Under the pieces are notes generated by a model, which did not search any database, was not told where the DNA came from, and saw only the letters and a program-made list of their open reading frames with translations. 60,033 bases of DNA from a candidate division WOR-3 bacterium (lineage in GTDB: Bacteria; SDB-A): contig JAFGON010000022.1 of NCBI GenBank assembly GCA_016926475.1, forward strand, positions 1 through 60,033, written 5' to 3'. How positions within the stretch are numbered: the stretch's first letter is position 1; each line of letters starts with the position of its first letter. Shown here in pieces: positions 25-59,095 of this stretch. The position numbers were made by a program, and so were the translations under genes.

Positions 25-53
25 TTGATTTATATGCACCAAAGAGATATAAT
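25..53 (+). promoter_or_regulatory. Sigma-70-type promoter for first secreted protein
   Basis: TTGATT at 25-30 and a perfect TATAAT at 48-53 are separated by 17 bases. Transcription would start near 60, right before the AAAGGAGG ribosome site at 61-68, giving a 5' leader of only about a dozen bases. Seen in sequence; activity is inferred. Confidence 0.6.
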
Positions 54-72
54 CATACAAAAAGGAGGTTTC

Positions 73-1299
73 ATGAAATTTATTCTGACGGTTTTCATTA
101 CATTTGCTCTCCCGGCTATAGCCTTTTCGAACGCCGAAAGAGCTGAAATTTGCGGCATAAACCCATGGACAGGGCAAGAAACGCCTGTCTATCAGAAGTC
201 GTCCGTTCCGAGGTCTCCGGTTCTTTTGATCCCCGATTCAAACGCGGATGTAGTGGGTATGTTCTCTCCAAACGATGGTTCTTATCTTGGGAATATTATT
301 GTCGACGACCCTACCGGAATAAACTATGACCTTTCAACACCGATAAACGCCATACATGGACCTGCAAAAATAATATTTCTTTCTGACCAGGTATCAGACG
401 CAGTCTACGCTTTTGACTCTTTGGGCAACTTTCTCTACATCGCAGCGGACACTTCAGACGGCTTGAACAATGTAAGGGGCATCGCTTTCAGAAACGACAC
501 CCTTTTTGTCACGAATGGAACAGGAAACAAAGCCATATACATGTTCAGCGGGCCTCACTTATTTGCGGGCTTTTTCGTCCCGTCGGGAACTATAGATCCT
601 TTCGATATCCTATTCCTTTCAGACGGAAGCGCTTTGGTCGCAGACATCGAGGGTTCTTCCGACAACGTAAGGCTCTACGACCCTTCGGGTAGTTTCGTAA
701 AACAGATAATTTCCATAAATTTTCCCGAGCAGATAAACACCGACCCGGTCCTTCCCGGCGCTTTCTTAGTCGCGGGTTTTTCCGCCGACAACATAACTGA
801 CTTCGACACTAGCGGAGCCGTTTTCAGAACACTGCCTTTCAGCGGCGCAAGAGGCGTTTACAGGCTCGGAAACGGAAACATTCTCGCGACGAGTTCTACC
901 GGCGTGGTCGAACTCGATTCTGCGACAGGCTCTCAGGTCGCTGTTGAGTATGCTGGTCAATGCAGGTTCATAGAACTCTACGATGCGTCTCTCGGAGTTG
1001 AAGAACCGGTAGAACAACCCGTCGGAATAAAGGCTTTGAGGGTTTCTCCAAATCCTTTTGACGGAGACCTAAATGTATCCTTCAGCCTTACCAGCCCTCA
1101 ACGCGTCTTTGTCAGCGTCTATTCAGTCCTCGGTTCAAAAGTGAGAACTCTCAGTGAAGGAGTCCTTGAACGGGGGGACCATTGCTTTGTATGGAACGGA
1201 AAAGACGACAGCGGCGCTGAATGCCTGAGCGGAGTCTATTTCATAACAGTGACAACCCCTGAGGGCGAATCAAACCAAAAAGTCGAGTATCTCAAGTAA
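73..1299 (+). CDS. Secreted protein with T9SS-type C-terminal sorting domain
   Basis: The start is the ATG at 73, seven bases after a strong AAAGGAGG site; an upstream in-frame start at 25 falls on the promoter and would displace the signal peptide. The product is about 408 residues. Residues 1-19 form a Sec signal peptide. The middle (about 40-310) has repeated short beta motifs of the kind found in NHL/propeller-like folds (aspartate-rich turns, 'AFDSLGNF', 'LYDPSGSF'). From about residue 322 to the end is a FlgD-Ig-like/T9SS type A sorting domain: 'SPNPF', then 'VYSVLGSKVRTL', a 'WNGKDDSG' turn and 'SGVYFITV'. By family knowledge such a tail routes the protein across the outer membrane through the type IX system. 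The cargo function is unknown. Confidence 0.88.
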   Translation: MKFILTVFITFALPAIAFSNAERAEICGINPWTGQETPVYQKSSVPRSPVLLIPDSNADVVGMFSPNDGSYLGNIIVDDPTGINYDLSTPINAIHGPAKIIFLSDQVSDAVYAFDSLGNFLYIAADTSDGLNNVRGIAFRNDTLFVTNGTGNKAIYMFSGPHLFAGFFVPSGTIDPFDILFLSDGSALVADIEGSSDNVRLYDPSGSFVKQIISINFPEQINTDPVLPGAFLVAGFSADNITDFDTSGAVFRTLPFSGARGVYRLGNGNILATSSTGVVELDSATGSQVAVEYAGQCRFIELYDASLGVEEPVEQPVGIKALRVSPNPFDGDLNVSFSLTSPQRVFVSVYSVLGSKVRTLSEGVLERGDHCFVWNGKDDSGAECLSGVYFITVTTPEGESNQKVEYLK

Positions 1300-17383: not shown

Positions 17384-19414
17384 ATGAGAAACCTTACGGT
17401 TTTCGCGGTGATTCTGTCTTTCGCCGCGGCTGTTTTCGCAGCCAATCCTAACAATGATGCTGCACCCTACGTTCAGTCTCTCCCTTCAAACACAGAAGCA
17501 ATTGAAATGCCTTTGGTCTGGTCTCTGAATGTCCAGGCATTAGGAGCAAGCAACAGGTGTCTCGGCGTTGAAGTAATAGACGATTCTCTTATGATTGTCA
17601 CCGACGCGAACACTACTGGCTGCGTATTCCAGCTGATAAATTATGTCTCAGGAACCATCCTCGGAACCGTCCCCCAGCCCGGTCAAACCGGTTGGGGACA
17701 CAGAGACATGGACAGAGACGCCGGAGACACAATATACGCAGGCGGAGCCACAGGCACGACAGTGTACGGATACACCTGCACTGTCAACCCTTTCGCAATG
17801 ACTTCAGCTAACTCCTACACCGGACAGTCAAACCCTAATAGAGCTATTGCATGGCTTCAGGGAGACACTTTCTGGACAGGAAACTTCAGCACATCCATGG
17901 GTTATTTCACAAAAACCGGAGCTGTCTGGAGCGGCACAGGCAACTATTCTGTATACGGTTCCGCTTATGTGCCCTCTTCGGTTCCAAACGGCGACAAAGT
18001 ATGGTACCACGGACAGGTGACAAACCCCGCCGGATGGGAATGCACCTGGTTCGGTTTGAACCCCCACACAGGCACATGGACAGGTGAAACCCTTTATTGT
18101 CAGATCCCCGCTTTCGCCGCAGGATATGCCGATGCTATGGCCGGCGGCGGCGACTTCGTTGATGATTTTATGGGATTTGGTCCCTGCCTCGTCGGATTCA
18201 CTCAGGGAGACAACGACTTTGTCTACGCTTTATCCCTCAACCCGACCATAAACGACGTGGGAATCAGGAGTGTCGTCGAGCCTCATCCAGGACAGTATCC
18301 TCCAGCGACGGCTATAACTCCGCAATGCTGGGTTTATGCAGATCCTTACTGCTCCGGACCCCAGACATTCGATGTAGATTTGACCATTGAAGAATCGGTT
18401 TCTGGCGTCATATACGACGAGACCGTCGGTGTCACCAACCTCGCCCCCGGAGACTCACAGCTCGTCACTTTCCCGAACTTCACGACATGGTGGTACAGGC
18501 ACAACTTCACGGCTACATTCATCACCAACCCGGGCGGAACCATCCCGACAAACGACACGGTATCTGTCGAATTCCACACTTTCCTCTTCCAGGACCTCTA
18601 CGTAGAGGACTTTGAAGCCGACAGTGGAGACATGACTGTCACGGGGACAGCAAGCGTCTGGCAGTGGGGAGCACCCACAACAGGTCCCGGAGCGGCGCAC
18701 AGCGGAAGCAACGTCTGGGCGACAGTCCTCGCGGGCAACTACCCGAACAGCGCGCATGCTCAGCTGACGACTCCCGCAATAGCACTTCCCGCTGACATGT
18801 CCACAGCCGAATGCTACTTCTGGATGTGGTGGGACACAGAAGCGAACTACGACGGCGAAAACATGAACATCTCAACAGACGGCGGGACTTCATTTGTCGC
18901 GTTTTCAGCAGTAACACCCGCGTACAACGGGACAGGCAATTCTTCGAATCCTCTCGGACAGGTTCCCTGCTGGACTGGCCACACGACCGGCGCTTCTTGG
19001 CAGCAGTATGTGATGGACCTCTCCTCATACGGCGGACAGACGATACTGCTTCAGTGGGACTTCGGTTCTGACGGTTCTGTTGCATACCCGGGATTCTACA
19101 TCGACGATGTCACAATCAGAATACCCAACGCCGTCGAAGAAAATCCGATAGTCAACCCGGATGTATTCTCCGTCAGGCCAATGGCACAGGTCGGAAACAC
19201 CCTGAGTTTGGCACTATCAGTTCCTTCTTCAACCCAGGTCAGATTCGAGGTATTCGACGCGACGGGAAGGCTTGTTGCAGTTCCTTTCTCGGGAACCGTC
19301 AACCAGTCAAGTGTTCTTTCGTGGAAATCCGACAATGTCTCAAACGGCGTCTTTTTCTACAAAGTCACCGCTAACGGCAGTACTTACACCGGAAAGTTCA
19401 CGAGAGTTTTCTAA
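17384..19414 (+). CDS. Large secreted protein with jelly-roll and T9SS sorting domains
   Basis: 676 residues, with ATG at 17384 after ACAAGGAGG. Residues 1-20 are a signal peptide ('FAAAVFAA'). The first 280 residues have repeated aromatic and glycine-rich beta strands of propeller type ('DTIYAGGATGTTVYGYTC', 'GDTFWTGNFSTSMGYF'). Residues about 300-400 look like an Ig-like domain ('VYADPYCSGPQTFDVDLT'). Residues about 405-580 form a MAM/'immune inhibitor A'-type jelly roll ('VEDFEADSGDMTVTG', 'WMWWDTEANYDGENMNIS', 'FYIDDVTIR'). The last 80 residues are a T9SS/FlgD-like sorting domain ('FEVFDATGRLV', 'SNGVFFYKVTANGSTYTGKF'). No protease site was seen. It is probably a surface or secreted structural or binding protein. 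Confidence 0.88.
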   Translation: MRNLTVFAVILSFAAAVFAANPNNDAAPYVQSLPSNTEAIEMPLVWSLNVQALGASNRCLGVEVIDDSLMIVTDANTTGCVFQLINYVSGTILGTVPQPGQTGWGHRDMDRDAGDTIYAGGATGTTVYGYTCTVNPFAMTSANSYTGQSNPNRAIAWLQGDTFWTGNFSTSMGYFTKTGAVWSGTGNYSVYGSAYVPSSVPNGDKVWYHGQVTNPAGWECTWFGLNPHTGTWTGETLYCQIPAFAAGYADAMAGGGDFVDDFMGFGPCLVGFTQGDNDFVYALSLNPTINDVGIRSVVEPHPGQYPPATAITPQCWVYADPYCSGPQTFDVDLTIEESVSGVIYDETVGVTNLAPGDSQLVTFPNFTTWWYRHNFTATFITNPGGTIPTNDTVSVEFHTFLFQDLYVEDFEADSGDMTVTGTASVWQWGAPTTGPGAAHSGSNVWATVLAGNYPNSAHAQLTTPAIALPADMSTAECYFWMWWDTEANYDGENMNISTDGGTSFVAFSAVTPAYNGTGNSSNPLGQVPCWTGHTTGASWQQYVMDLSSYGGQTILLQWDFGSDGSVAYPGFYIDDVTIRIPNAVEENPIVNPDVFSVRPMAQVGNTLSLALSVPSSTQVRFEVFDATGRLVAVPFSGTVNQSSVLSWKSDNVSNGVFFYKVTANGSTYTGKFTRVF

Positions 19415-45792: not shown

Positions 45793-47172
45793 TTAGGCTC
45801 TGGATTTTCCTATAGGCGTGGGAAATCTTTTTTCCCAGTCGTATACAACAGTGGCCACTATGAATATCGAAGAGTATGTGCCTATGATCACGCCCATTAA
45901 AAGGACAAAGGCGAAATCTTTAATTGTCGCCGCTCCGAAAATAAACAGGACGAGCAGGACCAAAAATGTGGTAAAAGCAGTCATGATTGTCCTGCTCAGT
46001 GTCGCGTTAATACTGGCGTTGACGACTTCTTTAAAATCTTTACCTTTGTTCATCCTGTTTACTTCCCTTATTCTGTCGGAAACAATGATGGAGTCGTTGA
46101 TGGAATACCCTATGAGCGTCAGCAACGCCGCGATTGTCGACATATTGAATTCAAAACCCGACACAGCGTATACACCGGCTGTAATGACGACGTCGTGCAA
46201 AAGAGCGACAACAGAAGCTATTCCGAATCTATACGTGAATCTTATGCTTATGTATCCGAGTATTACGGCGATTCCGAGAAGAACCACCCACAGAGTTCTC
46301 ATTCTCAAACTGCTGCTCATTCTTGCTCCGACGTGCTCGGTGCCTTCGATTGACAGTTTGAGGTTTGGATCCCTGTTTTCGAGTTCTTCCTTCAGCATAA
46401 TGTCGATCGAATTCGAAATTTCACCTTCGCCCTGAGTTTCAGGGTACGCTGATTTTTCAAGGGAATCCCATTTTACGGGATCGACGAAGACTCTTACAGA
46501 AAGGGCTGTGTTTTCGGCGTCCAAAAAAACTACCGCGCTGTCTATTCCTCTGCCTCTCATTTTGTCCAGAGTTTTTTCCGCAGGATCCAGAGGGGTGGTC
46601 AACTGAACCAAGCTGTCAAAATAGGTCAGTTTCTTTATTCCAGTTATGGTCCCGGAAAAATCTCCTGCCATGAGAAAAGCCGTGTCTTCACCGAAAATGG
46701 AATATCCTTTGATCTCAAGAAGGTTCGAATCGGCTATAGCTCTGATGTCTTGAGATGAATCCGCTTTTGCGAAAACACCGAGTTCGACTTCCGGCCGCCC
46801 GTATTCTTCGACAAATTTAATAAGGGCGCTGTCTACGCTCGCAACCGAAGAAGATGCCCTGCCGGCAGTATCCTGTGGTATTATCGGCAATCTTATTATG
46901 TATCCATTCAACCTCTCGTTCGAAGTTTCCTGTATTATACTCCTGCCGATACCCATGCTTTGGATTACGCTTCTTATCTGAGAGGTCGTCAAACTTCCCT
47001 CGTCTACGGTCATTCTGATAATCGTTCCGCCGGTGAAATCGATACCCTGCCTTGTATTCCACAAAAACACAAGACTGACAGCCGAAAGGACAAATACAAC
47101 CGCGGACACTATGTATGAAAATTTTCTTACTTTTATAAAATCGAAATGTGTGTTTTTAAAAATCTGCAACAT
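45793..47172 (-). CDS. secF: Protein translocase subunit SecF, with enlarged periplasmic domain
   Basis: Inner-membrane partner of SecD that pulls exported proteins across using the proton gradient. 459 residues against about 320 in E. coli. 'GIDFTGGTIIRM' after the first membrane helix and 'GARMSSSLRMRTLW', 'ALLHDVVITAGVY', 'LTLIGYSINDSIIVSDRIRE' in the C-terminal half are SecF signatures. The extra length is between helices 1 and 2 (about residues 50-280), where most members have about 100 residues. It lies 12 bases after secD. Confidence 0.93.
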   Translation of the reverse strand: MLQIFKNTHFDFIKVRKFSYIVSAVVFVLSAVSLVFLWNTRQGIDFTGGTIIRMTVDEGSLTTSQIRSVIQSMGIGRSIIQETSNERLNGYIIRLPIIPQDTAGRASSSVASVDSALIKFVEEYGRPEVELGVFAKADSSQDIRAIADSNLLEIKGYSIFGEDTAFLMAGDFSGTITGIKKLTYFDSLVQLTTPLDPAEKTLDKMRGRGIDSAVVFLDAENTALSVRVFVDPVKWDSLEKSAYPETQGEGEISNSIDIMLKEELENRDPNLKLSIEGTEHVGARMSSSLRMRTLWVVLLGIAVILGYISIRFTYRFGIASVVALLHDVVITAGVYAVSGFEFNMSTIAALLTLIGYSINDSIIVSDRIREVNRMNKGKDFKEVVNASINATLSRTIMTAFTTFLVLLVLFIFGAATIKDFAFVLLMGVIIGTYSSIFIVATVVYDWEKRFPTPIGKSRA

Positions 47173-47184
47173 TGCCGGTTCCTC

Positions 47185-48705
47185 CTATATGCTCAACTTC
47201 TGAGTGTTAGATCTGACCAAAAGAGTGTCGAAAATAAACCGGCTGACAAAAACGGCTGTGAAAACGTTCGCCACCAATCCGACGCTGAGGGTGACGGCAA
47301 AACCTCTTATTGGTCCTTTGCCGAACCACCAGAGAATCAAAGCGGACAAAAGCGTCGTGACGTTGGCGTCGAGAATAGTCACAAATGCCTTGGAAAAGCC
47401 TGTTTCAACGGCTTTTTTGACAGATTTATTCATTTTAAGCTCTTCTCTTATTCTCTCAAAAATCAGCACGTTAGCGTCCACCGCTGTTCCTATGACAAGC
47501 ACGAGACCGGCTATTCCCGGGAGAGTCAGGGTTAAATTGAAAGCGGAGAGAATGGCCAATAGAAACACCAGATTCAAAACGAGGGCGAAGTCTGCTACCA
47601 AGCCGCTGAACCTGTAATATACGAGCATTATCAACATTATCAAAGCTGCAGCTATTAAAAAGCTTTTTATTCCTGTCCTTATTGAGTCTTCGCCGAGACT
47701 CGGTCCTATCACGAAACTCTCCTCAATATCCGCTCTGGCTGGCATTCTTCCGGCTTGAAGAACAGACGCAAGGGCTTTGGCGTCGTCGAGAGTTCCCCTT
47801 CCGAGGGTAATCGTCGATTTTCCGGTTGTGGAAGCGCTGCTGACAACAGGCGCGGAAAAAACCTCGTTGTCGAGAACTATGGCTATCCTGTTTCCTATGT
47901 TTTCGGAAGTCACTCTCGCCCAGTCTGCTCTCGCCATGCCTCCAATTTCAAGATCCACCCTCGGTTCTGTCTGGCTTTCAGAAGTGCCGAGAGCAGCCCT
48001 AGAGGACACGATCGACGCGCCGTATATCTCCGGAATAGAACTCACCAGAAGGATTTCTCTGTAGTCGGGAATTCCGAAATCTTCACCTTCTTCGACGACG
48101 CTCCACAGTAAAATTTTACCAGAAACTGAATCGGCTATGCCCTGCTGTCTCGCTTCCTGAACCATAGAGTCAAGGTAAACCCAATCCTCAGCGCTGCAAA
48201 TCACGCTCTGCCCTCCCGGAAATGTCTTGAGAAGGGCAGAAAACCTTCCTTCGTTTTCTCTGTCAATTTTATCTATTATGTTCCTGAGTTCTTCAGGTCT
48301 TCTTACGACTCTGAAATCGAGAGTGGCGGTGGTCCCTATGAGTTTTTTCGCAATCATCGGATCCATTTCACCCGGGAGCTCAATTACAATGCTGTTTTCT
48401 CCCTGAACCTCGATTATCGGTTCGCTTACTCCGTATTTGTCGACACGGCTCGATAAAATTTCCACAACTTGGTTTACCATATCTGCGCCGCCCTCGCCGG
48501 AAGTGTCAACGGCGAGAAGAAAGTGAGATCCGCCTTCGAGGTCGAGCCCGAGTCTAATAGATCTCATCCTAAGTGAAGCGTTTTCAGGCAGGTATCTCTC
48601 TTCTCTTGGCAATCTGTAATATTTGTAAGAGAACGAAAGTTGAAAAAGAGAGATGCCTATCGCGGCCACAATTAAAACCAATTTCCATAACTGACTCTTT
48701 TTCAT
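47185..48705 (-). CDS. secD: Protein translocase subunit SecD
   Basis: 506 residues. 'RSIRLGLDLEGGSHFLLAVD' follows the first membrane helix; the periplasmic P1 domain comes next; 'GGMARADWARVTSENIGNRIAIVLDNEV' (given in part) and 'GPSLGEDSIRTGI' precede five C-terminal helices with 'VLVIGTAVDANVLIFERIREEL', which carries a proton-path aspartate. With SecF it would supply the Sec stage for the T9SS cargo proteins in this window. Confidence 0.95.
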   Translation of the reverse strand: MKKSQLWKLVLIVAAIGISLFQLSFSYKYYRLPREERYLPENASLRMRSIRLGLDLEGGSHFLLAVDTSGEGGADMVNQVVEILSSRVDKYGVSEPIIEVQGENSIVIELPGEMDPMIAKKLIGTTATLDFRVVRRPEELRNIIDKIDRENEGRFSALLKTFPGGQSVICSAEDWVYLDSMVQEARQQGIADSVSGKILLWSVVEEGEDFGIPDYREILLVSSIPEIYGASIVSSRAALGTSESQTEPRVDLEIGGMARADWARVTSENIGNRIAIVLDNEVFSAPVVSSASTTGKSTITLGRGTLDDAKALASVLQAGRMPARADIEESFVIGPSLGEDSIRTGIKSFLIAAALIMLIMLVYYRFSGLVADFALVLNLVFLLAILSAFNLTLTLPGIAGLVLVIGTAVDANVLIFERIREELKMNKSVKKAVETGFSKAFVTILDANVTTLLSALILWWFGKGPIRGFAVTLSVGLVANVFTAVFVSRFIFDTLLVRSNTQKLSI

Positions 48706-48767
48706 AGTAAGGGGTCCTCCCTCCTCAAAGATTTATTTGGGTCTGAAAAACAATTTTGAAGTTTATG

Positions 48768-48795
48768 ATTTTACCACAAGCCATCAAGCTGTCAA
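48768..48795 (-). promoter_or_regulatory. Strong promoter for secD-secF-tgt
   Basis: Minus strand perfect TTGACA (48790-48795), 16-base spacer and TGG-extended TAAAAT (48768-48773). The leader to the ATG at 48705 is about 55 bases. Confidence 0.75.
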
Positions 48796-48827
48796 GGATA
48801 AACCTATTTTCTAATTATAATTTTAGG

Positions 48828-48856
48828 TTGACTTGAAAGAGTCATGAGTGTATTGT
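48828..48856 (+). promoter_or_regulatory. Candidate promoter for the polyferredoxin-SprA gene run
   Basis: TTGACT (48828-48833), 17-base spacer, TATTGT (48851-48856). It runs divergently from the secD promoter. The start site would be near 48863, which makes the GTG at 48848 unusable as a start and favours the ATG at 48881. Confidence 0.45.
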
Positions 48857-48880
48857 TCTAAAGACTTTTATAACTATTTT

Positions 48881-49066
48881 ATGAGAAAAGGCGATCTTAT
48901 AACAGGGGTGATAATTTTTGTCGCCGGAATCGCTCTAAAAGCGATAAGTTTTTTCACCAAATCCAAATTCGTCATCAGAGGCACAAACTTCGAGGCTTTT
49001 TGGATACTTTTAGCGATTGGAACGATAATATTTGCTCTTTACCCATTTTTACGTAAAAAAAAATAA
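48881..49066 (+). CDS. Small two-helix membrane protein
   Basis: 61 residues from the ATG at 48881; an upstream GTG at 48848 is in frame but overlaps the candidate promoter. Two hydrophobic segments (about 5-22 and 34-53) end in a basic tail ('FLRKKK'). No ribosome site and no family recognised. It sits first in the run leading to the polyferredoxin and SprA. Confidence 0.45.
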   Translation: MRKGDLITGVIIFVAGIALKAISFFTKSKFVIRGTNFEAFWILLAIGTIIFALYPFLRKKK

Positions 49067-49096
49067 ACGCCATTTTTGGGAAACTGTAGTGACAAA

Positions 49097-49405
49097 ATGG
49101 TAATCCTTGAGTTTTTCACCTTGATTTTCATTTCTCTTGCAAAAATTTCGGTCCCTTTTTTTGAAAACTCCGCTCTCACCTACATACTTTTCATCCCCGT
49201 GGCCGTCGCCCTGGCGATATCGTTTTTGAAAACAAAAAAGCTGTGTTGGCTGAGAATTATAATGCTGGCCTACTTCTTGGCGGTCGCAATTAAACTCTTC
49301 GTGTCCCCTCCCTGCGACAGCCAAAACTCCTTTATCACTTCAGAGTTTTCCGAATGCAGATCATACGCATCGAGGATTTGTCTTTCATGCATAGGAATAG
49401 AATAG
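49097..49405 (+). CDS. Small membrane protein preceding the polyferredoxin
   Basis: 102 residues from the ATG at 49097. Three hydrophobic segments (about 4-20, 24-43, 51-69) are followed by a cysteine-containing soluble tail ('SPPCDSQNSF', 'SECRSYASRICLSC'). The last part overlaps the start of the polyferredoxin gene. I do not recognise a family. The presence of several cysteines next to an Fe-S membrane protein is suggestive but may be a coincidence of the overlap. Confidence 0.45.
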   Translation: MVILEFFTLIFISLAKISVPFFENSALTYILFIPVAVALAISFLKTKKLCWLRIIMLAYFLAVAIKLFVSPPCDSQNSFITSEFSECRSYASRICLSCIGIE

Positions 49406-50289
49406 CCTCTTTTCTGATCAAAATAAGGACATTTATCGGATTGTCCTCCTTTTTCGCGTTCAACAGCTATCTAAAAGGTTTCGGCACGGGAATATTCACG
49501 GGTCAATCTAAACGCTTTTGCGCTCCTTTCATAAATTGCCACAGCTGTCCATCCGCTACATTCGCCTGTCCTGTAGGACTCACTCAGCATTTTTTCACAT
49601 ACAGACACCTTACCGGTCAGATGGTCATACCCAAGTTGTCTCTGGGTTTTCTGATTTTAATATCGCTCGTAATGGGCAAGATTTTCTGCGGATGGCTGTG
49701 TCCTTTTGGGCTCATACAGACTCTTTTATACAAAATCAAAAGCTTCAAAATTCGCATTCCCCACCCTTTAACCCACATGAAATATGCCGTTTTCGCTTTT
49801 TTTATAATTTTCCTACCCCTCTATACCGGCGAACCATGGTTTTGTAAATTATGCCCTGTCGGCTCTTTAGAAGCCGGTGTTCCTCTTGTATCTTTCGGAG
49901 CAGCGAGCTTGGCTTTGAGAGAAATCGCTCAGGCCCTATTTTCCCTTAAATTGTCAATTTTGCTGGTTTTCCTTTTTATGTCAGTCCACACCCAAAGGCC
50001 TTTTTGCAGGCTATTTTGCCCCATAGGAGCTCTTTATTCCTTTTTCGGTCGTTTCAGCCTGATAAGGGTTAAACTCGACACGGACGCCTGCATTTCATGC
50101 GGACTTTGCGAAAAAGTGTGCCCGATCGAACTTCCGATTGACAGGGCTGTAAAATCTGGAAACTGCTTTCTGTGCGGAGAATGCCTCCGGTCTTGCCACA
50201 AAAACGCCCTGTATTACGGTTTAAACGATGACGTGAAAATTTTGAAGGATAAATTTTCCAAACTTTTTCTCTCCAAAAGTATTGAATAA
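49387..50289 (+). CDS. NapH/CcoG-like membrane polyferredoxin
   Basis: 300 residues from the ATG at 49387; a GAGGAT site lies upstream, and earlier starts add residues before the first membrane segment. About four or five membrane helices alternate with cysteine motifs: 'CHSCPSATFACPVG', 'FCGWLCPFGLIQ' and 'CRLFCPIGALYSFF', the last two being the CxxxCP pairs of NapH/NosR/CcoG proteins. Two cytoplasmic-type [4Fe-4S] motifs follow, 'CISCGLCEKVCP' (from 235) and 'CFLCGECLRSC' (from about 260). Family members carry electrons between the quinone pool or ferredoxin and periplasmic redox partners. Its stop overlaps the SprA start by eight bases. Confidence 0.85.
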   Translation: MHRNRIASFLIKIRTFIGLSSFFAFNSYLKGFGTGIFTGQSKRFCAPFINCHSCPSATFACPVGLTQHFFTYRHLTGQMVIPKLSLGFLILISLVMGKIFCGWLCPFGLIQTLLYKIKSFKIRIPHPLTHMKYAVFAFFIIFLPLYTGEPWFCKLCPVGSLEAGVPLVSFGAASLALREIAQALFSLKLSILLVFLFMSVHTQRPFCRLFCPIGALYSFFGRFSLIRVKLDTDACISCGLCEKVCPIELPIDRAVKSGNCFLCGECLRSCHKNALYYGLNDDVKILKDKFSKLFLSKSIE

Positions 50290-53200
50290 AATCCTGAAAA
50301 AACTCCTTTTGCTGGCAATATTATTGCCCTTTACAGATTTTCTCCTTTTGCATTCACTCTCGGCGCAAGAAAGTTTGGCTCAAGAAAGCCCCTTTATCTC
50401 TCCAATAGGAGAAATGCTTCATGACTATGTTTTCAGAAATCTGACAAGGTTAAAATTCCGCCAGACGATACTTCCGGAAAGAGGCCTTCTGATCGAGGAG
50501 GTATTTTACGACTCGATGGCTCTCTGGACTGAGAACATTGTCGCCGTCGAGGACTTCAAAAATTACGCCTACAAACTTTCGCTTAAAAACAAACTCGCCG
50601 ACTACACGGTTGCATATCTTCAGCAGCAGCAGGTCTTCTCCAACCAAGGACTGATACCTGATATAGAACTGCCGATAAGGATGCCGACTGCCATAGCCGG
50701 ATTCATAGGTCAAGGCGGCAATTTAAGGATTAACGGCTCCCAGAGAATTCAGTTCGGCGGAAGCCAATCCACAGACCTAAACGCCGTTCAGACAGAATAC
50801 ACCCAGAACGATTTTCTGCCGGAACTCGAAATGAAACAGCAGTTGAACGTCAATCTGCAGGGCACCATCGGTCAGAAGATAAACGTCTTTGTCGATCACA
50901 ACAGCGAGGCACAGGCGGATTTAAAAAACAAAATCAGGCTTCAATACAGAGGCGATCAGGACGAATTGATACACCTGATTGAAATGGGGCACACCCAATT
51001 GTCCCTGCCGGGAACAGAGCTTATCGGGATGCCCCCGATCCAGATGGGTCTTTTCGGCATTAAATCAGAAATGCAGATAGCCGGAGTCAACATCACAGCC
51101 ATAGCGACAAAAGAAGAAGGAAAGGCAGAGAGCAGGACTTTTGTCGGCAGGGCATCTGTCGACACGATAATCCTCTGGGACACCGATTACATAAGAAGGC
51201 AGTATTTCTGGCTGGGTCTGCCCGGAGATTCCATAGGAGACGTCAACCCGTATGACTCCATAGCCAAACTAATAGTATGGGTTGACGACAACAACGGAAC
51301 CAATAACGCTCTGACCGGAGCAATAAGGGGCGATTTTCATTTTTACACCCAGACCCAGTACTCCGATACTTTGCTTCCTCCCGGGTATTTCGACCCTCAA
51401 GAGGCGGGATCCGACAATTTTTACATTTTCAACTACCAGACTAAAACAATCGAGTTGAGGGTGCCTCTCGACGAGAACTACGCCCTCGGAGTCTGCTACG
51501 TCATAAACAGGAGAAATACGCCAGGCGGGCAGTTTTACCGAACGGACACAGTCGGGACAGTCCGCGACCAATACGACACTTCCCAGACAATCGATATCAA
51601 AGTAATAAAACCGCCTGTCGAAAGGACTTATTTTCCGACTTGGGACCTTCAGATCAGAAACAGGTATTCTCTGAGCTCGACGGCGATAGTCCCAGGAAGC
51701 TTCGAACTGAAGATATACAAACACAACACAGGGTCCGGGATAGACGAAGAGACTCAGGGTTCTACAACTTACCTCAAGCTTCTCGGATTGGACGACGATG
51801 ACGACGGATACATAGACGACGGCAACGTCGATTACGACAGGGGATTCGTCGCTTTTCCAGACACACTTCCCTTCCCATTCGCCAGCTCTGCACTCCTTGA
51901 GCCGGATTCTATAATCTACGACACTACTTCGACCAACGTCGGCAGAAAATATAAACTTGTCGTCTCATACAAAGGCATCAGAAACGTCTTCTCTTTAGGC
52001 GCCATGAACATTCTCGAAGGGTCGGAGGTCGTCACGGTCAACGGCGAGAGGTTGGTCAAAAATGTCGATTACACAATAGATTACGACATAGGGATAATCA
52101 CCTTCCTCACAGACAAAGTCAACGACGTGAACGCGGTGGTCAACGTCGATTTTCAATACGCTCCTTTCATCAGCCTCGCCGACAAATCTCTTCTCGGAGT
52201 CAGGTTTGACTACAGGGTTTCCCCTGCTGTAAACATAGGAGTGACAACTCTCTACAGAAGCGTCAGCACAAAAGAAGAACACCCACAGCTCGGCAACGAA
52301 CCGAGAAACATCACCATGGCAACGGTAGACGCGAGCATGGTCTTCTCTCCGTCGTTCATGACAAAAGCCGTCGACATCCTGCCTTTGATAAGCTCTTCCT
52401 CCCCTTCAAACCTGACGATAAGAGGAGCTGTCGCCTTTTCCATGCCGAACCCGAACACGAAAGGATTCGTGTATTTAGACGACATGGACGGAAACAAAAT
52501 GTCCCTGAACCTCGGCGTCAGCAGGGCTAACTGGCATTTCGGCAGTATACCAGACGATATATTCAACAACGCTCCAACCTACAAAGACACATCCGATCTC
52601 GGAATGGTTTACTGGTACAGCCCCAACGACTGGTTTTCCAAAGGAGACCTTTTCCCAAATCTGCCCGAGACGGAAAGGGACGATGAAATACAGGTTTTGA
52701 GCCTCGTAATTCAGCCGAGAAACGGATCAACTTCTTCTTATGCCTCTCTTCAGCAGTGCATCTCCAAGACCGGCTCGGACCTTTCCCAATTCAGGTATCT
52801 GGAGGTCTGGGTCTACGGAGACAGGGGAAGAGTCAACATAGATCTGGGCTACAACATAACAGAAGACGTAGCGAGAAGAACAGGGGTTTCAGACTCGATA
52901 GGCGGTTGGAACGGCGTCCTAAACACAGAAGACAGAAACAGAAACGGCGTCCTCGACATCGGTGAAGACGTGGGACTTGACGAAGTCGAAGGCAGGGACT
53001 CTGATCACGTCCCGGGAGACGAATGGAACGACGACTACCCGGATCAGGTAAACAATTCCACGTATCGCCAGCTCAAAGGCACAGAGGAAAACACAATTCT
53101 CGACACCGAAGACTTGAACGGCGACGGAATTTTAAACCTTTCAAGGGATTACGTAGAATACACTTTCGTCCCAGGGGACACGACTTTTCTCGACATAGAC

Positions 53201-55885
53201 AGAGGAAATGGCTGGAGGCTTTACAAAATTCCACTCCACGACAGCGGCGTCGGAACATACGTCGGATCTCCGGACTGGGAGAGAATCCGATACGCGAGAA
53301 TATGGGTTGACAGCTTCTCTTCCCAGACCGATTCGATTCTCTTCGGAGGAATCTCTGTATCCGGAAACAGGTGGAAAAGAAACGATGTCTATTCCTTGGA
53401 TTCGACAGCAATAGAGATCCCCCAGGAGTTTTTTGAGGTGACAACCCGCAACAACTACGACGACCCCTCTTACGTTCCACCCTTTGACCCGGGCAAAGAC
53501 AACTACGGCAACACCAAAAAAGAACAATCCATGGCTTTCGTCTTCAGAAACTTGGGCTACAACAGAGTCGGAGGCTGCTACTACGCGACCGTCGTTGAAG
53601 ACAACTACAATAACTACAGAAGGATGCTCCTATACATTCACGGAGAAGGACAGGACGGTTATTTTTCGATAAAATTCGGCGGAGACACCCTCTCTTTCTA
53701 CGAATACAGAGCACCCATACCGACTGGCTGGCAGGAACTTACTGTAGATTTTGAAAAATTCATAGACCTCAAAAAATCCATAGAGGGCGACACCACCGGA
53801 ACATGGAACTCTGAAAACTATTACGTAACGACTTACGGAGCGAACAAACCCTCGCTGACGAAAATCAACAGGACGACAATGAGCGTTGTCAGCGAAGAAC
53901 AGATCACAGGGATAGAGGGTGAGTTGTGGATAGACGATATCAGGCTCGTCTCCCCTTACCGTGAGACCGGCAGAGCCGCGAACCTCAGCGTAGGAATGTC
54001 TTTCGGCGATGTCTTGTCAGTTAACCTGACAGGTTCACAGTACGAAGCGGATTACCAAAAGATAACAGATCAAACCGGAAGCGGCTCCACGACGACAAAT
54101 TATTCCGGAACAGCGATTTTTCAAGGGGGCAAAATATTCCCTTCAAAATGGCTTATATCTTTCCCGTTCACTGCTTCTCTGACCATGTCAGAAAACCTAC
54201 CAAAATTCTACCCGGGTTCGGACATAAGGCTCGACGGTCAGGAGTCGAGGGACAAGTCTTCCAATTCCCAGACCAGGCATTTTTCTTTCGCTTTTTCAAA
54301 GTCCGGAAAAACATTGAACGCTTTAGCTTCGCTTATAATTGACCATTCGAGGTTCAGCTACTCATGGACAAACGTCAACAACCTCTCCTACAACAGAGCC
54401 GATTCATCTTGGGTCAAAACAGCCGTCTATTCATGGACAATCAGCCCGCATATCAAACCGCTGAACATCGCCGGCCAGGAAATAGGGACATTTTTCAACA
54501 ACATAAGTTTCACCTCGACTTATTCCTATACAAAAGTCTCTTCGCATCTTATTCCAGACACCTCCGGTCAACTCCTTCAAAGCCTGCTTCAGAGAAATCT
54601 CAACTCTACGATGAGCCTTAGTTACAACCTTTTAAAACCCATGAACATTACTTATTCGGTTTCCCAGAGCAGGGACCTTGAATTAGATGATTACATATTC
54701 GGAAGGCAGACTATAAAAACACAGAGGGTTTCAGCGAGGTACAGCTCATTGCCCCTTCCCTTTATAAGACCGACAATTTCTTGGGAGACAAACTATTCTG
54801 AAGACTCCCGCCCAGAGCTTCGCATGACCTACGACACGACGGATATTTTCAACGTCTCAAACACCAACACGCTTTCTTTCAACACTACGATAAGTTTCGT
54901 TCAACCCCTCGAATTCGCAGGAAGAATAAGAGACGAGAGCAAGGATTCCGCGGCGTCAGTCGGGTCTCCCCAGTGGATGCTTCTCAACCTCGGAAAACTC
55001 GGCAGGAGCATAACTCCTGTGAGTTTGACTGCATCGAGAACGAGGACGACGCGTCTTTACAGGCTCACGATGACGCCCGACTGGAAATACCAGCTCGGTT
55101 TGGTCGAGAACATAGATCCAGTATCAACAGGCAAATACGTCTCTCCAAACGACTATTTCGGCTGGACTTACAGCTTCACGGGAAGTTCGGGATTCAATTT
55201 CACGTACATAACATCATCTGTTAATTTTGCCTGGTCTAAAAACACAGGCGGCAACATCGGCAACATGACATACACAGAATCGGTGACATGGCCGAGATTC
55301 GTACTGAATTTTTTAAACTTTCAGAAACTTCTGCAAATCAGAGCTCTTGAGAATTCAACGGTTTCTACGGGCTTCACCTCTACGAGAACCAGATCAGGAC
55401 CAGAAGATCAAGATCCGACGAGAAAGACGAAAGGGATAGACTTTTCCCCTCTTGTATCTGTTCAACTTCGGTGGAGAAATGGACTCTCGACAGTTTTTTC
55501 TACTTCCAGAACCCAGAACGACATAGACAACCTCGGCGTCATAAGAACTCTAACGAGACAGGAAAACAACGCTATTTCAGCCACCTTAGGTTATACCTTT
55601 TCAGCTCCGGGGGGCCTGCCTCTTTTCGGCAGAACCCTCAGGTTCAACTCTCTGATGACATTCTCTATCAACTACACTTTCAACACAGCGAAAGAATCCT
55701 ACAGGACTTCAGGAGAAATAATATCCTATAGGTCCAACTACACGATTTCACCGACCGCTTCTTACAATTTTTCACAAAACGCGACAGGTGGTCTAAATGG
55801 CACCTATTCTATCAACGAGGACAGACAAACCGGCAGAAAGATTCGGAACGTAGGTTTGAATGTTTGGGCTGAATTTAGATTCTGA
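50282..55885 (+). CDS. sprA: SprA-family type IX secretion outer-membrane translocon
   Basis: 1867 residues. The start is a TTG at 50282, overlapping the previous stop; the signal peptide follows ('LLLLAILLPFTDFLLLHSLSAQ' in part). The N-terminal region 'LPELEMKQQLNVNLQGTIGQ' with 'NVFVDHNSEAQADLKNKIRL' and 'IHLIEMGHTQLSLPG' is the SprA signature. Acidic DxDxDG-type loops occur near 500 ('DDDDDGYIDDG'), 880 ('TEDRNRNGVLDIGED') and 940 ('TEDLNGDGILNL'). The remainder is long barrel-type strands ending 'NVWAEFRF'. In Flavobacterium SprA is the giant 36-strand pore of the T9SS. Bacteroidota members are longer (about 2,400). The C-terminal-signal proteins in this window are its likely substrates. 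Confidence 0.9.
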   Translation: MNKILKKLLLLAILLPFTDFLLLHSLSAQESLAQESPFISPIGEMLHDYVFRNLTRLKFRQTILPERGLLIEEVFYDSMALWTENIVAVEDFKNYAYKLSLKNKLADYTVAYLQQQQVFSNQGLIPDIELPIRMPTAIAGFIGQGGNLRINGSQRIQFGGSQSTDLNAVQTEYTQNDFLPELEMKQQLNVNLQGTIGQKINVFVDHNSEAQADLKNKIRLQYRGDQDELIHLIEMGHTQLSLPGTELIGMPPIQMGLFGIKSEMQIAGVNITAIATKEEGKAESRTFVGRASVDTIILWDTDYIRRQYFWLGLPGDSIGDVNPYDSIAKLIVWVDDNNGTNNALTGAIRGDFHFYTQTQYSDTLLPPGYFDPQEAGSDNFYIFNYQTKTIELRVPLDENYALGVCYVINRRNTPGGQFYRTDTVGTVRDQYDTSQTIDIKVIKPPVERTYFPTWDLQIRNRYSLSSTAIVPGSFELKIYKHNTGSGIDEETQGSTTYLKLLGLDDDDDGYIDDGNVDYDRGFVAFPDTLPFPFASSALLEPDSIIYDTTSTNVGRKYKLVVSYKGIRNVFSLGAMNILEGSEVVTVNGERLVKNVDYTIDYDIGIITFLTDKVNDVNAVVNVDFQYAPFISLADKSLLGVRFDYRVSPAVNIGVTTLYRSVSTKEEHPQLGNEPRNITMATVDASMVFSPSFMTKAVDILPLISSSSPSNLTIRGAVAFSMPNPNTKGFVYLDDMDGNKMSLNLGVSRANWHFGSIPDDIFNNAPTYKDTSDLGMVYWYSPNDWFSKGDLFPNLPETERDDEIQVLSLVIQPRNGSTSSYASLQQCISKTGSDLSQFRYLEVWVYGDRGRVNIDLGYNITEDVARRTGVSDSIGGWNGVLNTEDRNRNGVLDIGEDVGLDEVEGRDSDHVPGDEWNDDYPDQVNNSTYRQLKGTEENTILDTEDLNGDGILNLSRDYVEYTFVPGDTTFLDIDRGNGWRLYKIPLHDSGVGTYVGSPDWERIRYARIWVDSFSSQTDSILFGGISVSGNRWKRNDVYSLDSTAIEIPQEFFEVTTRNNYDDPSYVPPFDPGKDNYGNTKKEQSMAFVFRNLGYNRVGGCYYATVVEDNYNNYRRMLLYIHGEGQDGYFSIKFGGDTLSFYEYRAPIPTGWQELTVDFEKFIDLKKSIEGDTTGTWNSENYYVTTYGANKPSLTKINRTTMSVVSEEQITGIEGELWIDDIRLVSPYRETGRAANLSVGMSFGDVLSVNLTGSQYEADYQKITDQTGSGSTTTNYSGTAIFQGGKIFPSKWLISFPFTASLTMSENLPKFYPGSDIRLDGQESRDKSSNSQTRHFSFAFSKSGKTLNALASLIIDHSRFSYSWTNVNNLSYNRADSSWVKTAVYSWTISPHIKPLNIAGQEIGTFFNNISFTSTYSYTKVSSHLIPDTSGQLLQSLLQRNLNSTMSLSYNLLKPMNITYSVSQSRDLELDDYIFGRQTIKTQRVSARYSSLPLPFIRPTISWETNYSEDSRPELRMTYDTTDIFNVSNTNTLSFNTTISFVQPLEFAGRIRDESKDSAASVGSPQWMLLNLGKLGRSITPVSLTASRTRTTRLYRLTMTPDWKYQLGLVENIDPVSTGKYVSPNDYFGWTYSFTGSSGFNFTYITSSVNFAWSKNTGGNIGNMTYTESVTWPRFVLNFLNFQKLLQIRALENSTVSTGFTSTRTRSGPEDQDPTRKTKGIDFSPLVSVQLRWRNGLSTVFSTSRTQNDIDNLGVIRTLTRQENNAISATLGYTFSAPGGLPLFGRTLRFNSLMTFSINYTFNTAKESYRTSGEIISYRSNYTISPTASYNFSQNATGGLNGTYSINEDRQTGRKIRNVGLNVWAEFRF

Positions 55886-55891
55886 CCCAGG

Positions 55892-58800
55892 ATGAAAACA
55901 TCGCGCAGATATTGCTCTCTTCTTTTTGTCGACATAGCAGGTTTCTCATCAATAGCTGAAAATTCCGACCCAGAAAACGTCAAAAAAATCCTTCAAAAAG
56001 TTTTTCTTAAATCAAACAGCATTATCAAAAGCTACGGAGGTCATTTATACCAGCTGGCAGGCGACGCAATAATATTTTCTTTTGGCTTTCCCTCTTCTAT
56101 AGAAAACCAAGACGAAAGAGCGCTTCTCGGGGCAATCGAAATTTCAAAACTGTCAAAGGAAATTTCCTCCCAAACAGGCGTCACGATAGAATTTCACATC
56201 GGGCTGCATTCCGGACTTGTGCTCACCGGCGCTATAGAAATCGAAGGGACAAGTTTTCTTTCCATCGTTGGAGACCCTGTCAACGTCGCGAGCAGGCTTC
56301 AGCAGATATGTCCTAAAAATCAAATTTATGTGAGCGACGTTGTGGTGAAAAACACTTCTCACCAGTTCAACTTCAGATTCAAAGCAGAAGTGAATTTCAA
56401 AGGCAAGAAAAAAAGTGTCGCCGTTTACAGGTTTGTTTCCGCAAAGAAAAGACGCCTGAGCAGAAGGGGGATTCGATGGGCGGAGATCCCTCTTGTCGGC
56501 AGAAATAGGGAAATGAAAGAAGCTTTGAATTTCTTCAAAGAAAGAAAAATACTGCCTTCCGTGTTATTCATCTCCGGAGAGCCGGGGGTGGGAAAGACGA
56601 GGTTTGTCGACGAATTTTTAAAAAATAATTTTTCAGAATCGTTACAAATAAAGACCAAAACCCTTTCATACGGATCCGACAGTTTTTACAGTGTCAGACA
56701 ATTCATTCAAAACTTGTTCCCAGAAATTCTGCAAAAAGAAAAAATTTCCGACCTTGAGAATTATTTAAAGACAAGAGGCGTTTTTTACTTTAAATTGGCG
56801 GCTCAAGTATTATCTGAATTCCTCTTTGAAACTCACAAAAAAAGTAATGAGACCCAGAAGACAAGGTTTCTTTTGAAGATAATCACAGATTTAACTCAAT
56901 ACAAGATTAATTCGTCATCAGCGGAAGGGTTGTTTTTGGTCTTTGAAGACCTGCACTGGGCCAGTAAACCTCTTTTTGAAATGATATTTGCTCTTTTATC
57001 GGAGTTGCCGTATCAAAGAGTATCCTTTCTGATGATAGCCAGATATTCAAAACATCTAAATCTATTAAATGAATTTTTGGAAAAATTCAAAAAAATTTCC
57101 ATAGTCAGACAAATAGAACTCATGCCTCTTGAAAAAGAACAATCCGACAAGATGATTTCGTTTATCCTTAAAATCGCAAACATACCAGATGTGTTGAAAA
57201 CAAAAATAATTGACTACAGCCAGGGAAATCCTTTTTTCCTGGAAGAGATCTCAAAAATGCTGGTAGAAAAAGGTGTCGTCTGGAGAGAAAAAAACTCCTG
57301 GAGAGGAAAAGTTCCAAAAAACTTCGAAATTCCACAATCCATTGGAGAAATTATTTTAAGTCGTTTTGACCTTTTGGAAGAAAAAACAAAAAGACTCCTC
57401 GAATTGGCTTCAGCGGCAGGATGTTGTTTTTCAAAGGATATGGTCTTCAAAATCAGCTTTTTAAACGAATTCAAAGCTTTCGAAGAAGCTTTGGAAAGGA
57501 ATTTTGTCACAAAAACAAAACCAGGAGAATACTCTTTTACCCACATTCTGATAAGGGATTCGGTTTATTCAAATCTCTCGAACGAAGAAAAGATCATGCT
57601 TCACAGAGAAATTTTCAACTACCTAAAAAAACTTTACCCTAATGAAATTTCAAAAGCCCATCTTCTCGCACACCACGCTGAGGCTTCGGAAAATTGGGAA
57701 CAAGCATTCAAGTACAATTATATTTCTTCAATTCACGACATGAAGAGATATTCTTTTCACCACAGCATTGAGTATTTGGACAAGTGTGCAAAAATTCTCC
57801 AAAAAAAACTGTACAGGCCTGAAAGTAAACCGCTTTTTGACTACTTCATGTCCAACGCGAGAATACACGGAATAATCGGTAACTACAGGAAATCCCAGAA
57901 GTATTTTCAAGACGCCAGAAAAATTTCTATGGATACGTCTCAAAAAATCGACTATCGGCTTGAACTATCCAACCAGCTATTTCGAGTGAGTCAGTACAGG
58001 CAGGCAAAAGAGCATCTTGAAAATGCTCTTTCTCTCACACTTAAAAACAGAAGTTTACCCGATCGAAGAAAAAAGCTTTTCAACACATACATGAATCTCG
58101 CTGATGTACATTATTTTTTGGGAGACATTAAAGACGCAAAACTGATGTTGAAAAAAGCAAAAAGGTTCATCACTGATAATAAAAGTTACGAATACCTGAA
58201 CTACATCGGCAAGTTGGCTGACATTCTCAACGACAACGGACAATCGCTTAAAGCCCTAAAGATAAGGCTGGAAATTGAAAAGGTTACAAAAAAAAGGAAA
58301 TGGTTGACCTTTTTGTCTACGAACTACAACAACCTCGGAGTTATTTACGACAACGTTAAACAACCCCAAAAAGCATTGACCTCGTACCAAAAAGCAAACG
58401 AAATTGACCACAAAACCGGTTATCTCCTGGGAGAAGCCATAACTTCCTACAACATTTCAACCTACTATTCCGAGTTCGGCAAAAACGAAGACGCGCTTAA
58501 ATGGCTCGACAAATACCATGGATTGAACGTGAAAATAGAAAACAGACTCGGGGAGGGTTATTACAACCTCGGTCTGGCGGAAGTCAGTTACAACAAAAAC
58601 GAAGTCTCGAATTCAGTTGAATATTTGATAATTTCACACAAGGTTTTCAAAGAGCTCAACATAAAAAACATGCGGTATTACCTTCTTCAGCTTTTATTGT
58701 TACGGTCTTCAGAAATTCTCGACAGAAAAACACTGAAAAACTACCTCCCCGAATATAAAAAAACGTTCGGCAAACTGGAAAAAGACGATGAGAAGGAAAA

Positions 58801-59095
58801 TATCTCCGAATATCTCGCGGTGTTGTGTTATGTTTATTTTTCAATCGGACAGCAAAAAAAATTCATATATCTGAGAAAACTGCTCGTAAAAAACCAAAAG
58901 GCAAAACTGCCTGAAGATTTTTATTTTTTAAACGTGTATCTAACACTTTTCAAGGGTTTAGATAAAAATTATGAGAAATTGAAAAAACACGCAAAAAAAC
59001 TTTTAGAGTCCTATGAAAGTAATTTCAAAAGCAGGGAAGACAAGCAAGCTTTCAGAAGACGAAAAATCGTGGCTCAAATCTTGCGACACATATAA
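55892..59095 (+). CDS. Class III cyclase-like / AAA ATPase / TPR signalling protein
   Basis: 1067 residues, starting six bases after the SprA stop. Residues 1-185 are a class III nucleotide-cyclase domain: both metal aspartates are present ('FVDIAGF' near 12-18 and 'LAGDAIIFSF' near 55), as are the transition-state Asn and Arg ('PVNVASRLQ' near 127). The usual purine-selecting Lys and Asp are replaced by Gln and Phe. Residues about 200-450 are a STAND/AAA-type ATPase with Walker A 'GEPGVGKT' near 228 and Walker B 'FLVFEDLHW' near 350. Residues about 600-1000 are TPR-like helical repeats. This is the CyaA/soluble-cyclase-like architecture. Whether it makes cAMP is uncertain. Confidence 0.85.
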   Translation: MKTSRRYCSLLFVDIAGFSSIAENSDPENVKKILQKVFLKSNSIIKSYGGHLYQLAGDAIIFSFGFPSSIENQDERALLGAIEISKLSKEISSQTGVTIEFHIGLHSGLVLTGAIEIEGTSFLSIVGDPVNVASRLQQICPKNQIYVSDVVVKNTSHQFNFRFKAEVNFKGKKKSVAVYRFVSAKKRRLSRRGIRWAEIPLVGRNREMKEALNFFKERKILPSVLFISGEPGVGKTRFVDEFLKNNFSESLQIKTKTLSYGSDSFYSVRQFIQNLFPEILQKEKISDLENYLKTRGVFYFKLAAQVLSEFLFETHKKSNETQKTRFLLKIITDLTQYKINSSSAEGLFLVFEDLHWASKPLFEMIFALLSELPYQRVSFLMIARYSKHLNLLNEFLEKFKKISIVRQIELMPLEKEQSDKMISFILKIANIPDVLKTKIIDYSQGNPFFLEEISKMLVEKGVVWREKNSWRGKVPKNFEIPQSIGEIILSRFDLLEEKTKRLLELASAAGCCFSKDMVFKISFLNEFKAFEEALERNFVTKTKPGEYSFTHILIRDSVYSNLSNEEKIMLHREIFNYLKKLYPNEISKAHLLAHHAEASENWEQAFKYNYISSIHDMKRYSFHHSIEYLDKCAKILQKKLYRPESKPLFDYFMSNARIHGIIGNYRKSQKYFQDARKISMDTSQKIDYRLELSNQLFRVSQYRQAKEHLENALSLTLKNRSLPDRRKKLFNTYMNLADVHYFLGDIKDAKLMLKKAKRFITDNKSYEYLNYIGKLADILNDNGQSLKALKIRLEIEKVTKKRKWLTFLSTNYNNLGVIYDNVKQPQKALTSYQKANEIDHKTGYLLGEAITSYNISTYYSEFGKNEDALKWLDKYHGLNVKIENRLGEGYYNLGLAEVSYNKNEVSNSVEYLIISHKVFKELNIKNMRYYLLQLLLLRSSEILDRKTLKNYLPEYKKTFGKLEKDDEKENISEYLAVLCYVYFSIGQQKKFIYLRKLLVKNQKAKLPEDFYFLNVYLTLFKGLDKNYEKLKKHAKKLLESYESNFKSREDKQAFRRRKIVAQILRHI

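Follow-up and report, generated by a model that had tools for sequence, protein, structure and literature searches.

A polyferredoxin gene overlapping sprA in a WOR-3 bacterium: probable compact packing of a membrane redox module beside a type IX secretion gene

In the window analysed here, a 60,033-nucleotide stretch of DNA from a candidate division WOR-3 bacterium, the gene of a membrane polyferredoxin (PFd) runs into the start of sprA, the gene of the outer-membrane translocon of the type IX secretion system (T9SS). The overlap probably means no more than that a self-contained membrane redox module is tightly packed against sprA, an arrangement fixed in a single small group of genomes. The module would consist of PFd and a small membrane protein ending in CXXC (SMP2), joined in this group by a second small protein (SMP1), and it would lie beside sprA by happenstance. 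The original prediction was of a functional link between PFd and the secretion pore, with packing alone as the other option. It is the latter that we favour: relatives have this polyferredoxin at other places, with redox genes or unrelated genes as neighbours, which largely agrees with one of the outcomes named beforehand as refuting a link, and in those relatives SprA is packed against unrelated genes. The link between electron transfer and the T9SS, however tempting, is not supported, the SprA neighbours in 21 relatives serving as an explicit control. At the same time, the analysis indicates a widespread module of two genes, one for a membrane micro-protein that ends in CXXC and one for a NapH-like polyferredoxin, whose neighbours suggest Fe-S-driven transmembrane thiol reduction.

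Results

All genes of the cluster lie on the forward strand. The first, SMP1 (48881..49066), encodes a hydrophobic protein of 61 aa with two predicted transmembrane (TM) helices and a conserved FVIRGT loop; it has homologues at the equivalent place in G001 and G003, and neither a Pfam match nor a known family was found for it. SMP2 (49097..49405) encodes a hydrophobic protein of 102 aa with three predicted TM helices and the end ...RICLSCIGIE, so that two co-directional small membrane proteins do precede the polyferredoxin, as predicted. PFd itself, a membrane polyferredoxin of the NapH/MauN/CcoG kind, occupies 49354..50289 (311 aa; stop TAA at 50287-50289), and an in-frame ATG at 49387 is an alternative start of the same reading frame. 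SprA/Sov (50282..55885; 1867 aa; TIGR04189, Pfam SprA_N) begins with TTG.

Read at base level, the PFd stop lies eight bases inside the SprA frame (50282..50289), exactly as first described. The TTG at 50282 is likely the true start, since SprA read from it has a sensible signal peptide (MNKILKKLLLLAILLPFTDFLLL...) and the first in-frame ATG comes 132 nt later. The absence of a Shine-Dalgarno-like motif before this TTG, which the original prediction had read as the lack of an independent ribosome site, is real and means little, because among 38 long ORFs of the window, taken from their longest-ORF starts, just 14 are preceded by such a motif. Nor is the overlap as such unusual: overlaps of 1-20 nt occur in 14 of 40 co-directional gene pairs across the whole window. 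A scan of 48650-50500 for promoters and terminators gave no convincing separate sprA promoter, with counts only moderately above those of shuffled sequence.

The order PFd-SprA is kept in all four genomes of the group, which span two genera, so the operon is real; SMP2 stands upstream of PFd in each. The overlap measures 8 nt in the window, 8 nt in G002 and 17 nt in G001, all in one genus, whereas in G003, from the sister genus, it gives way to a gap of about 100 nt. Translational coupling, as originally suggested, is possible within the one genus. SprA is 61% identical between the two genera, and since the order SMP2-PFd-SprA has survived their divergence, some selection on co-expression is possible.

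Outside the group this adjacency was not found. Among 147 genomes of a sister phylum we found SprA in 143 and PFd in 115; 112 genomes have both, 31 SprA only, 3 PFd only and 1 neither, in line with the chance expectation (Fisher P=1). PFd, constant beside SprA in the group, is never adjacent to it in the sister phylum where coordinates are listed, the closest pair being 9.7 kb apart. PFd is the 5' neighbour in none of 21 SprA loci there; a gene of the DXS cluster takes this place in nine, and elsewhere it is, for example, phosphomannomutase or a TIM barrel protein resembling xylose isomerase. The SprA 5' gene overlaps by exactly 4 nt in 9 of the 21. Conversely, the flanks of 30 PFd loci hold no SprA sequence. 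Bacteroidota are the phylum in which the T9SS is best known, and PFd was not found in 297 sampled genomes of that phylum at E<=1e-30.

By Pfam, PFd has two Fer4_5 stretches and a 2x[4Fe-4S] domain, and ferredoxin domains were the sole matches of a sequence search. Across 32 aligned homologues 16 cysteines are invariant, among them C112/C116, C218/C222 and eight at the C-terminus, which gives the NapH/MauN motif pattern. The membrane-embedded cysteine motifs read N-C-x2-C-P-x5-C-P-x-G, C-G-W-x-C-P-x-G, C-x2-C-P and C-R-x2-C-P. The AlphaFold model is of middling quality (pLDDT 73.8; residues 39-71, including the first cysteine motif, below 50), and a PDB search with it matched no solved fold at a useful level. 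Two further ideas about PFd were rejected. Recoding or selenocysteine was dismissed, as the in-frame stops of several homologues lie 5' of the true start; they appear because the aligned stretch reached back into the 3' part of the SMP2 gene, as checked by eye in loci L005 and L018. A dual Sec-Tat polyferredoxin (cf. PMC5449189) does not fit, as no twin-arginine precedes the last TM segment.

SMP2 ends in C-L-S-C-I-G-I-E directly upstream of PFd, and this terminus is predicted to be extracytoplasmic from hydrophobicity and charge, by a simple hydropathy script rather than a dedicated topology predictor. Its terminal C-x-x-C-x-G is invariant in 24 aligned sequences. This recalls the CD1871A CXXC family (NF040920), which is likewise small and hydrophobic with a C-terminal I-C-x2-C-I-G; SMP2 shares the CXXC-x-G end in a short membrane protein and is the best-scoring match to the model in each of the four group genomes. 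Its scores of 12.2-15.1 bits, however, lie below the cut-off of 32, and the alignment covers no more than the final 11 of the model's 38 positions; SMP2 also differs in having 102 aa and three TM segments. Our literature search found no paper mentioning 'CD1871A'.

The two proteins travel together. In 29 of 30 sister-phylum loci PFd is preceded by an SMP2-like protein with C-terminal CxxCxG, and the two reading frames often share 4 nt; several of these loci add a thioredoxin reductase, glutaredoxin, TlpA-like lipoprotein, DsbD-like protein or cytochrome c. Loci L063 and L070 have a thioredoxin reductase-type protein (Pyr_redox), a glutaredoxin and a TlpA-like redoxin nearby, L072 the reductase type and TlpA, L076 TlpA, and L084 DsbD_2; in G004 an AhpC/TSA redoxin lies upstream of PFd and a Pyr_redox oxidoreductase downstream. 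Against a thiol role, neither TlpA nor a thioredoxin adjoins PFd in the window, and the neighbours of many PFd loci are unrelated.

The genome does carry a T9SS. SprA matches TIGR04189 over its full length with 427 bits (cut-off 200), PorV_fam has six matches in the genome, four of them over cut-off, PorU (NF033707) reaches 459 bits against 420 in this lineage, and T9SS-type cargo domains (CTD) give 65 TIGR04183 matches. Of the other components of interest, no GldM (PorM) was matched by HMM, a search that could miss divergent motors, and the one GldL (PorL) match, 18.5 bits on contig C25, is a coiled-coil protein that we judged a chance hit; three Bacteroidota genomes searched alongside scored over the GldL/GldM cut-offs. 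Compared with known SprA/Sov systems, this group lies outside Bacteroidota, no motor was detected in it, and the companions of sprA in its operon are a putative redox module rather than T9SS genes. We found no paper joining the T9SS with WOR-3. A T9SS outside Bacteroidota can go without a recognisable GldLM motor, which makes its energy source a testable question.

Discussion

We propose that SMP2 and PFd form a transmembrane redox module that is probably thiol-directed, a role suggested by gene neighbourhoods in other lineages. A cytoplasmic donor would pass electrons into the C-terminal 2x[4Fe-4S] domain of PFd; they would then cross the membrane via clusters held by the embedded cysteine motifs, arrive at the extracytoplasmic CXXC end of SMP2, and from there may reach thiol proteins of the TlpA/redoxin type or different acceptors in the periplasm. 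This would be the job of DsbD/CcdA, the conduits that supply thioredoxin-like proteins of the periplasm (TlpA type) with reductant from across the inner membrane, done with iron-sulfur clusters; SMP2 and PFd are unrelated to DsbD/CcdA in sequence, and the analogy is drawn from gene neighbours. sprA follows in what looks like one transcription unit with them, and within this genus it may be translationally coupled purely for the sake of expression. In the literature searched, we found neither a description of the function of such a module nor a paper combining polyferredoxin, CXXC and thiol.

Three other readings deserve attention. First, the pair may serve respiration and not thiols, as a quinol dehydrogenase resembling NapH or as a donor that supplies electrons to cytochromes or reductases of the periplasm, with its place beside sprA equally incidental. 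NapH/MauN (TIGR02163) is the best family match of PFd, at 90.9 bits, and shares with it a polytopic layout, a pair of C-x3-C-P (Fer4_5) motifs and a 2x[4Fe-4S] domain at the C-terminus; NapH is known as part of the quinol dehydrogenase NapGH (PMC5449189). In addition, the module has cytochrome c554 next to it in locus L087 and, in L066, a protein resembling molybdopterin oxidoreductases in its vicinity. The score, however, is far under the family cut-off of 213.05 bits, and unlike NapH/MauN, PFd has an extra invariant N-C-x2-C-P-x5-C-P-x-G near the N-terminus and a constant CXXC small-protein partner, and neither NapG nor NapC nor a nitrate reductase was seen among its neighbours in the window or the sister-phylum loci read. 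The SMP2 CXXC lacks the H of a haem site, and thioredoxin-family genes are the commoner redox neighbours. We regard this reading as rather unlikely.

Second, the terminal CxxC of SMP2 might supply the missing ligands of a [4Fe-4S] site that PFd holds in the membrane, making SMP2 a structural subunit and the pair a ferredoxin-dependent electron entry of another membrane complex. Apart from those of the ferredoxin domain, PFd has nine cysteines (C62, C65, C72, C112, C116, C164, C167, C218 and C222), one more than two clusters need, and the SMP2 motif, placed at a free C-terminus, hardly varies in sequence. The CXXC could as well be a redox-active thiol, and we consider the ligand role unlikely.

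Third, PFd and SMP2 could be a dedicated T9SS accessory in this group, reducing or isomerising periplasmic disulfides of SprA or its cargo, or energising a T9SS that lacks GldLM, with the overlap fixing the ratio. The order kept in two genera, the overlap in three genomes, the undetected motor and the ties of PFd to thiol-redox genes elsewhere all point this way. So does a cysteine pair in the SprA of this group, C826 and C1099, present together in 8 of 25 aligned SprAs: the two could form a disulfide, which would give some meaning to a gene for thiol redox chemistry upstream. However, four sampled sister-phylum SprAs with such a pair are not beside PFd, at least 31 genomes of that phylum keep SprA without a detected PFd and others have both without adjacency, the 297 sampled Bacteroidota genomes yielded no PFd, and G003 has not kept the overlap. 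Nor is there an obvious need for fixed stoichiometry between a pore in the outer membrane and an Fe-S protein in the inner one. This makes a dedicated accessory improbable. The bolder version, an Fe-S-driven thiol reductant conduit unrelated to DsbD/CcdA and recruited here to the motor-less type IX translocon for redox control of C826-C1099 or cargo, seems to us very improbable indeed.

Compact packing accordingly remains our preferred reading of the PFd-SprA overlap. On the other side of sprA, a nucleotide cyclase/AAA ATPase/TPR protein gene (55892..59095, forward strand) follows it in all loci that are complete there, namely the window, G002 and G003.

Gene order at the window locus and within its group

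The gene for the NapH-like membrane polyferredoxin (PFd, 311 aa; 49354..50289, plus strand, TAA stop at 50287-50289) runs into that of SprA, the T9SS outer-membrane pore (50282-55885, plus strand, TTG start at 50282), and the overlap described in the original prediction is right to the base. The two small membrane proteins placed before PFd are also present, as hydrophobic ORFs of 61 aa (SMP1) and 102 aa (SMP2). As for the ribosome site, no Shine-Dalgarno-like motif lies 5' of sprA, but the motif is present in fewer than half of the window's long ORFs. Judged by its profile score, SprA is a true TIGR04189 member because it reaches 427 bits against a cut-off of 200; PFd has domain content of the NapH/MauN/CcoG kind and scores far under the NapH cut-off.

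Among the genomes searched, the window's group comprises four members in two genera, including WOR-3 Zod_Metabat.185 and a MAG named Desulfuromonas sp. SDB. PFd lies directly 5' of a single-copy sprA in all four, and SMP2 precedes PFd in each; the SMP1 ORF was recovered in three, the fourth (G002) being not aligned. A nucleotide cyclase/AAA/TPR gene (55892-59095 in the window) follows sprA 3' at the group loci complete in that region; members of its similarity cluster also lie near sprA, on the opposite strand, in two sister-phylum genomes (L096, 14122-17262; L109, 2-2467). The overlap measures 8 nt in the window's genome and in G002, and 17 nt in G001 if an ATTG start is used, whereas G003, from the other genus, has a gap of ~100 nt and no overlap. 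Thus, the SMP2-PFd-sprA operon is conserved in the group, and the overlap is a genus-level trait. Of 40 co-directional neighbour pairs in the window (at least 100 aa), 14 overlap by 1-20 nt; in this genome, therefore, an overlap alone does not point to a special relationship between two genes. The secD-secF pair (45793-48705) is divergent from the SMP1-SMP2-PFd-sprA cluster (48881-55885), so that an inner-membrane export pair and the T9SS pore operon share an intergenic region; secD is divergent in all four genomes.

PFd and SprA in the sister phylum

In the sister phylum, to which WOR-3 bin77 belongs (147 genomes), SprA was detected in 143 genomes and PFd (E<=1e-35) in 115, 23 of the latter being partial or weaker matches. 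Both genes are present in 112 genomes, SprA alone in 31, PFd alone in 3 and neither in 1, which is what chance would give (P=1); these genomes are drafts, which makes absences soft, and the adjacency result is independent of absences. PFd was next to SprA at none of the 21 SprA loci inspected as a neighbourhood control. The gene directly 5' belongs to a 1-deoxyxylulose-5-phosphate synthase cluster in nine, to a phosphomannomutase cluster in two, encodes a xylose isomerase-like TIM barrel protein in one, and is one of assorted others in the rest; a classic 4-nt overlap occurs at SprA in 9 of the 21. Tight packing of SprA against unrelated genes is thus a habit. Conversely, no SprA was found in the flanks of 30 PFd loci, which are the best-scoring matches and not a random sample. 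A SprA position was listed alongside 63 PFd genes; 53 of these are on a different contig from SprA and ten on the same one, the nearest at 9.7 kb. With a query that does find PFd in the sister phylum, none was detected at E<=1e-30 in 297 Bacteroidota genomes, only a few candidates per genome being scored. The neighbourhood comparison therefore upholds the PFd-sprA order throughout the group but not at sister-phylum loci: the operon is real but group-specific, and the functional coupling to T9SS first read from the overlap is not supported.

Relation to the T9SS

Three SprA cysteines, C826 and C1099 among them, are conserved in all four group members. Of 25 SprAs in the alignment, eight have both C826 and C1099 and one has a cysteine at a single one of the two positions, a pairing that suggests a disulfide in some SprA lineages. 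This leaves room for redox maturation of SprA; however, PFd does not adjoin SprA at the four sister-phylum loci of the sample whose SprA has both cysteines. We consider it very unlikely that PFd/SMP2 is a dedicated T9SS accessory.

The whole-genome profile searches proposed earlier confirmed PorV in the window's genome, with six PorV-family matches; PorU adjoins PorV (459 bits against a cut-off of 420), and about 65 CTD matches indicate T9SS cargo, some coinciding with FlgD-type Ig domains. For the motor, GldM (PorM) was not found in the group or in six sister-phylum genomes and GldL (PorL) gave only a chance-level coiled-coil match there, while three Bacteroidota genomes were positive in the same searches. 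This lineage possibly has a motor-less or divergent-motor T9SS. In Flavobacterium, the translocon is driven by the GldLM motor (PMC10994853). T9SS in further FCB phyla has been suggested earlier (PMC11285876). Two T9SS-type cargo genes lie in the window (25-1299 and 17384-19414; Por_Secre_tail / TIGR04183 matches), the second additionally encoding an InhA-like MAM domain.

A putative membrane redox module

PFd and SMP2 appear to make up a membrane redox module of their own, one that is widespread and has been little described. In 29 of the 30 sister-phylum loci, the gene immediately 5' of PFd, often overlapping it by 4 nt, encodes a small membrane protein that ends in C-x-x-C-x-G plus a few residues; the window counterpart is SMP2, ending ...RICLSCIGIE. 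The shortest SMP2-like proteins (44-50 aa) have a positively charged N-terminus followed by a single TM helix and a short tail with the CXXC, which the positive-inside rule predicts to be outside. The CD1871A family (NCBIfam) is defined by a similar C-terminal motif, and the SMP2 terminus is its best match in each group genome, but under the family cut-off. Across 32 homologues, PFd has 16 invariant cysteines (C62, C65, C72, C112, C116, C167, C218, C222 and the ferredoxin-domain eight), and C164 nearly so.

In the best-known relative, NapH, there are four TM segments and the [4Fe-4S] clusters sit on the cytoplasmic side (PMC5449189); PFd differs in an extra N-terminal cysteine motif. If PFd has four TM helices, hydropathy puts this motif and C164/C167 in loops outside, and C112/C116 and C218/C222 inside. 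The clusters could then form a wire through the membrane that ends close to the CXXC of SMP2. We offer this as a hypothesis because the AlphaFold model, helical as expected, has its uncertain part just where the first cysteine loop lies.

From gene neighbourhoods alone, we infer a thiol-redox role for PFd/SMP2. L063 and L070 have the order thioredoxin reductase-type protein, glutaredoxin, TlpA-like redoxin, CXXC protein, PFd; a TlpA-like gene is found at L072 and L076, with the reductase additionally at L072. The SMP2-like/PFd pair of G004 comes after genes for an AhpC/TSA redoxin and a DUF6029 protein; next after the pair is a pyridine-nucleotide oxidoreductase that has a hydrophobic stretch at its N-terminus. 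A DsbD_2 protein is upstream at L084 and cytochrome c554 at L087; unrelated neighbours occur at other PFd loci. The DUF6029 protein may serve the pair as an acceptor or as a structural partner. Its gene lies directly upstream of the pair in about a dozen loci (L088, 8772-10229; L092, 3-773; L024, L060, L062, L064 and others), and the protein has a conserved C-terminal GGLVCSGGVCRFEEPFKGVK stretch.
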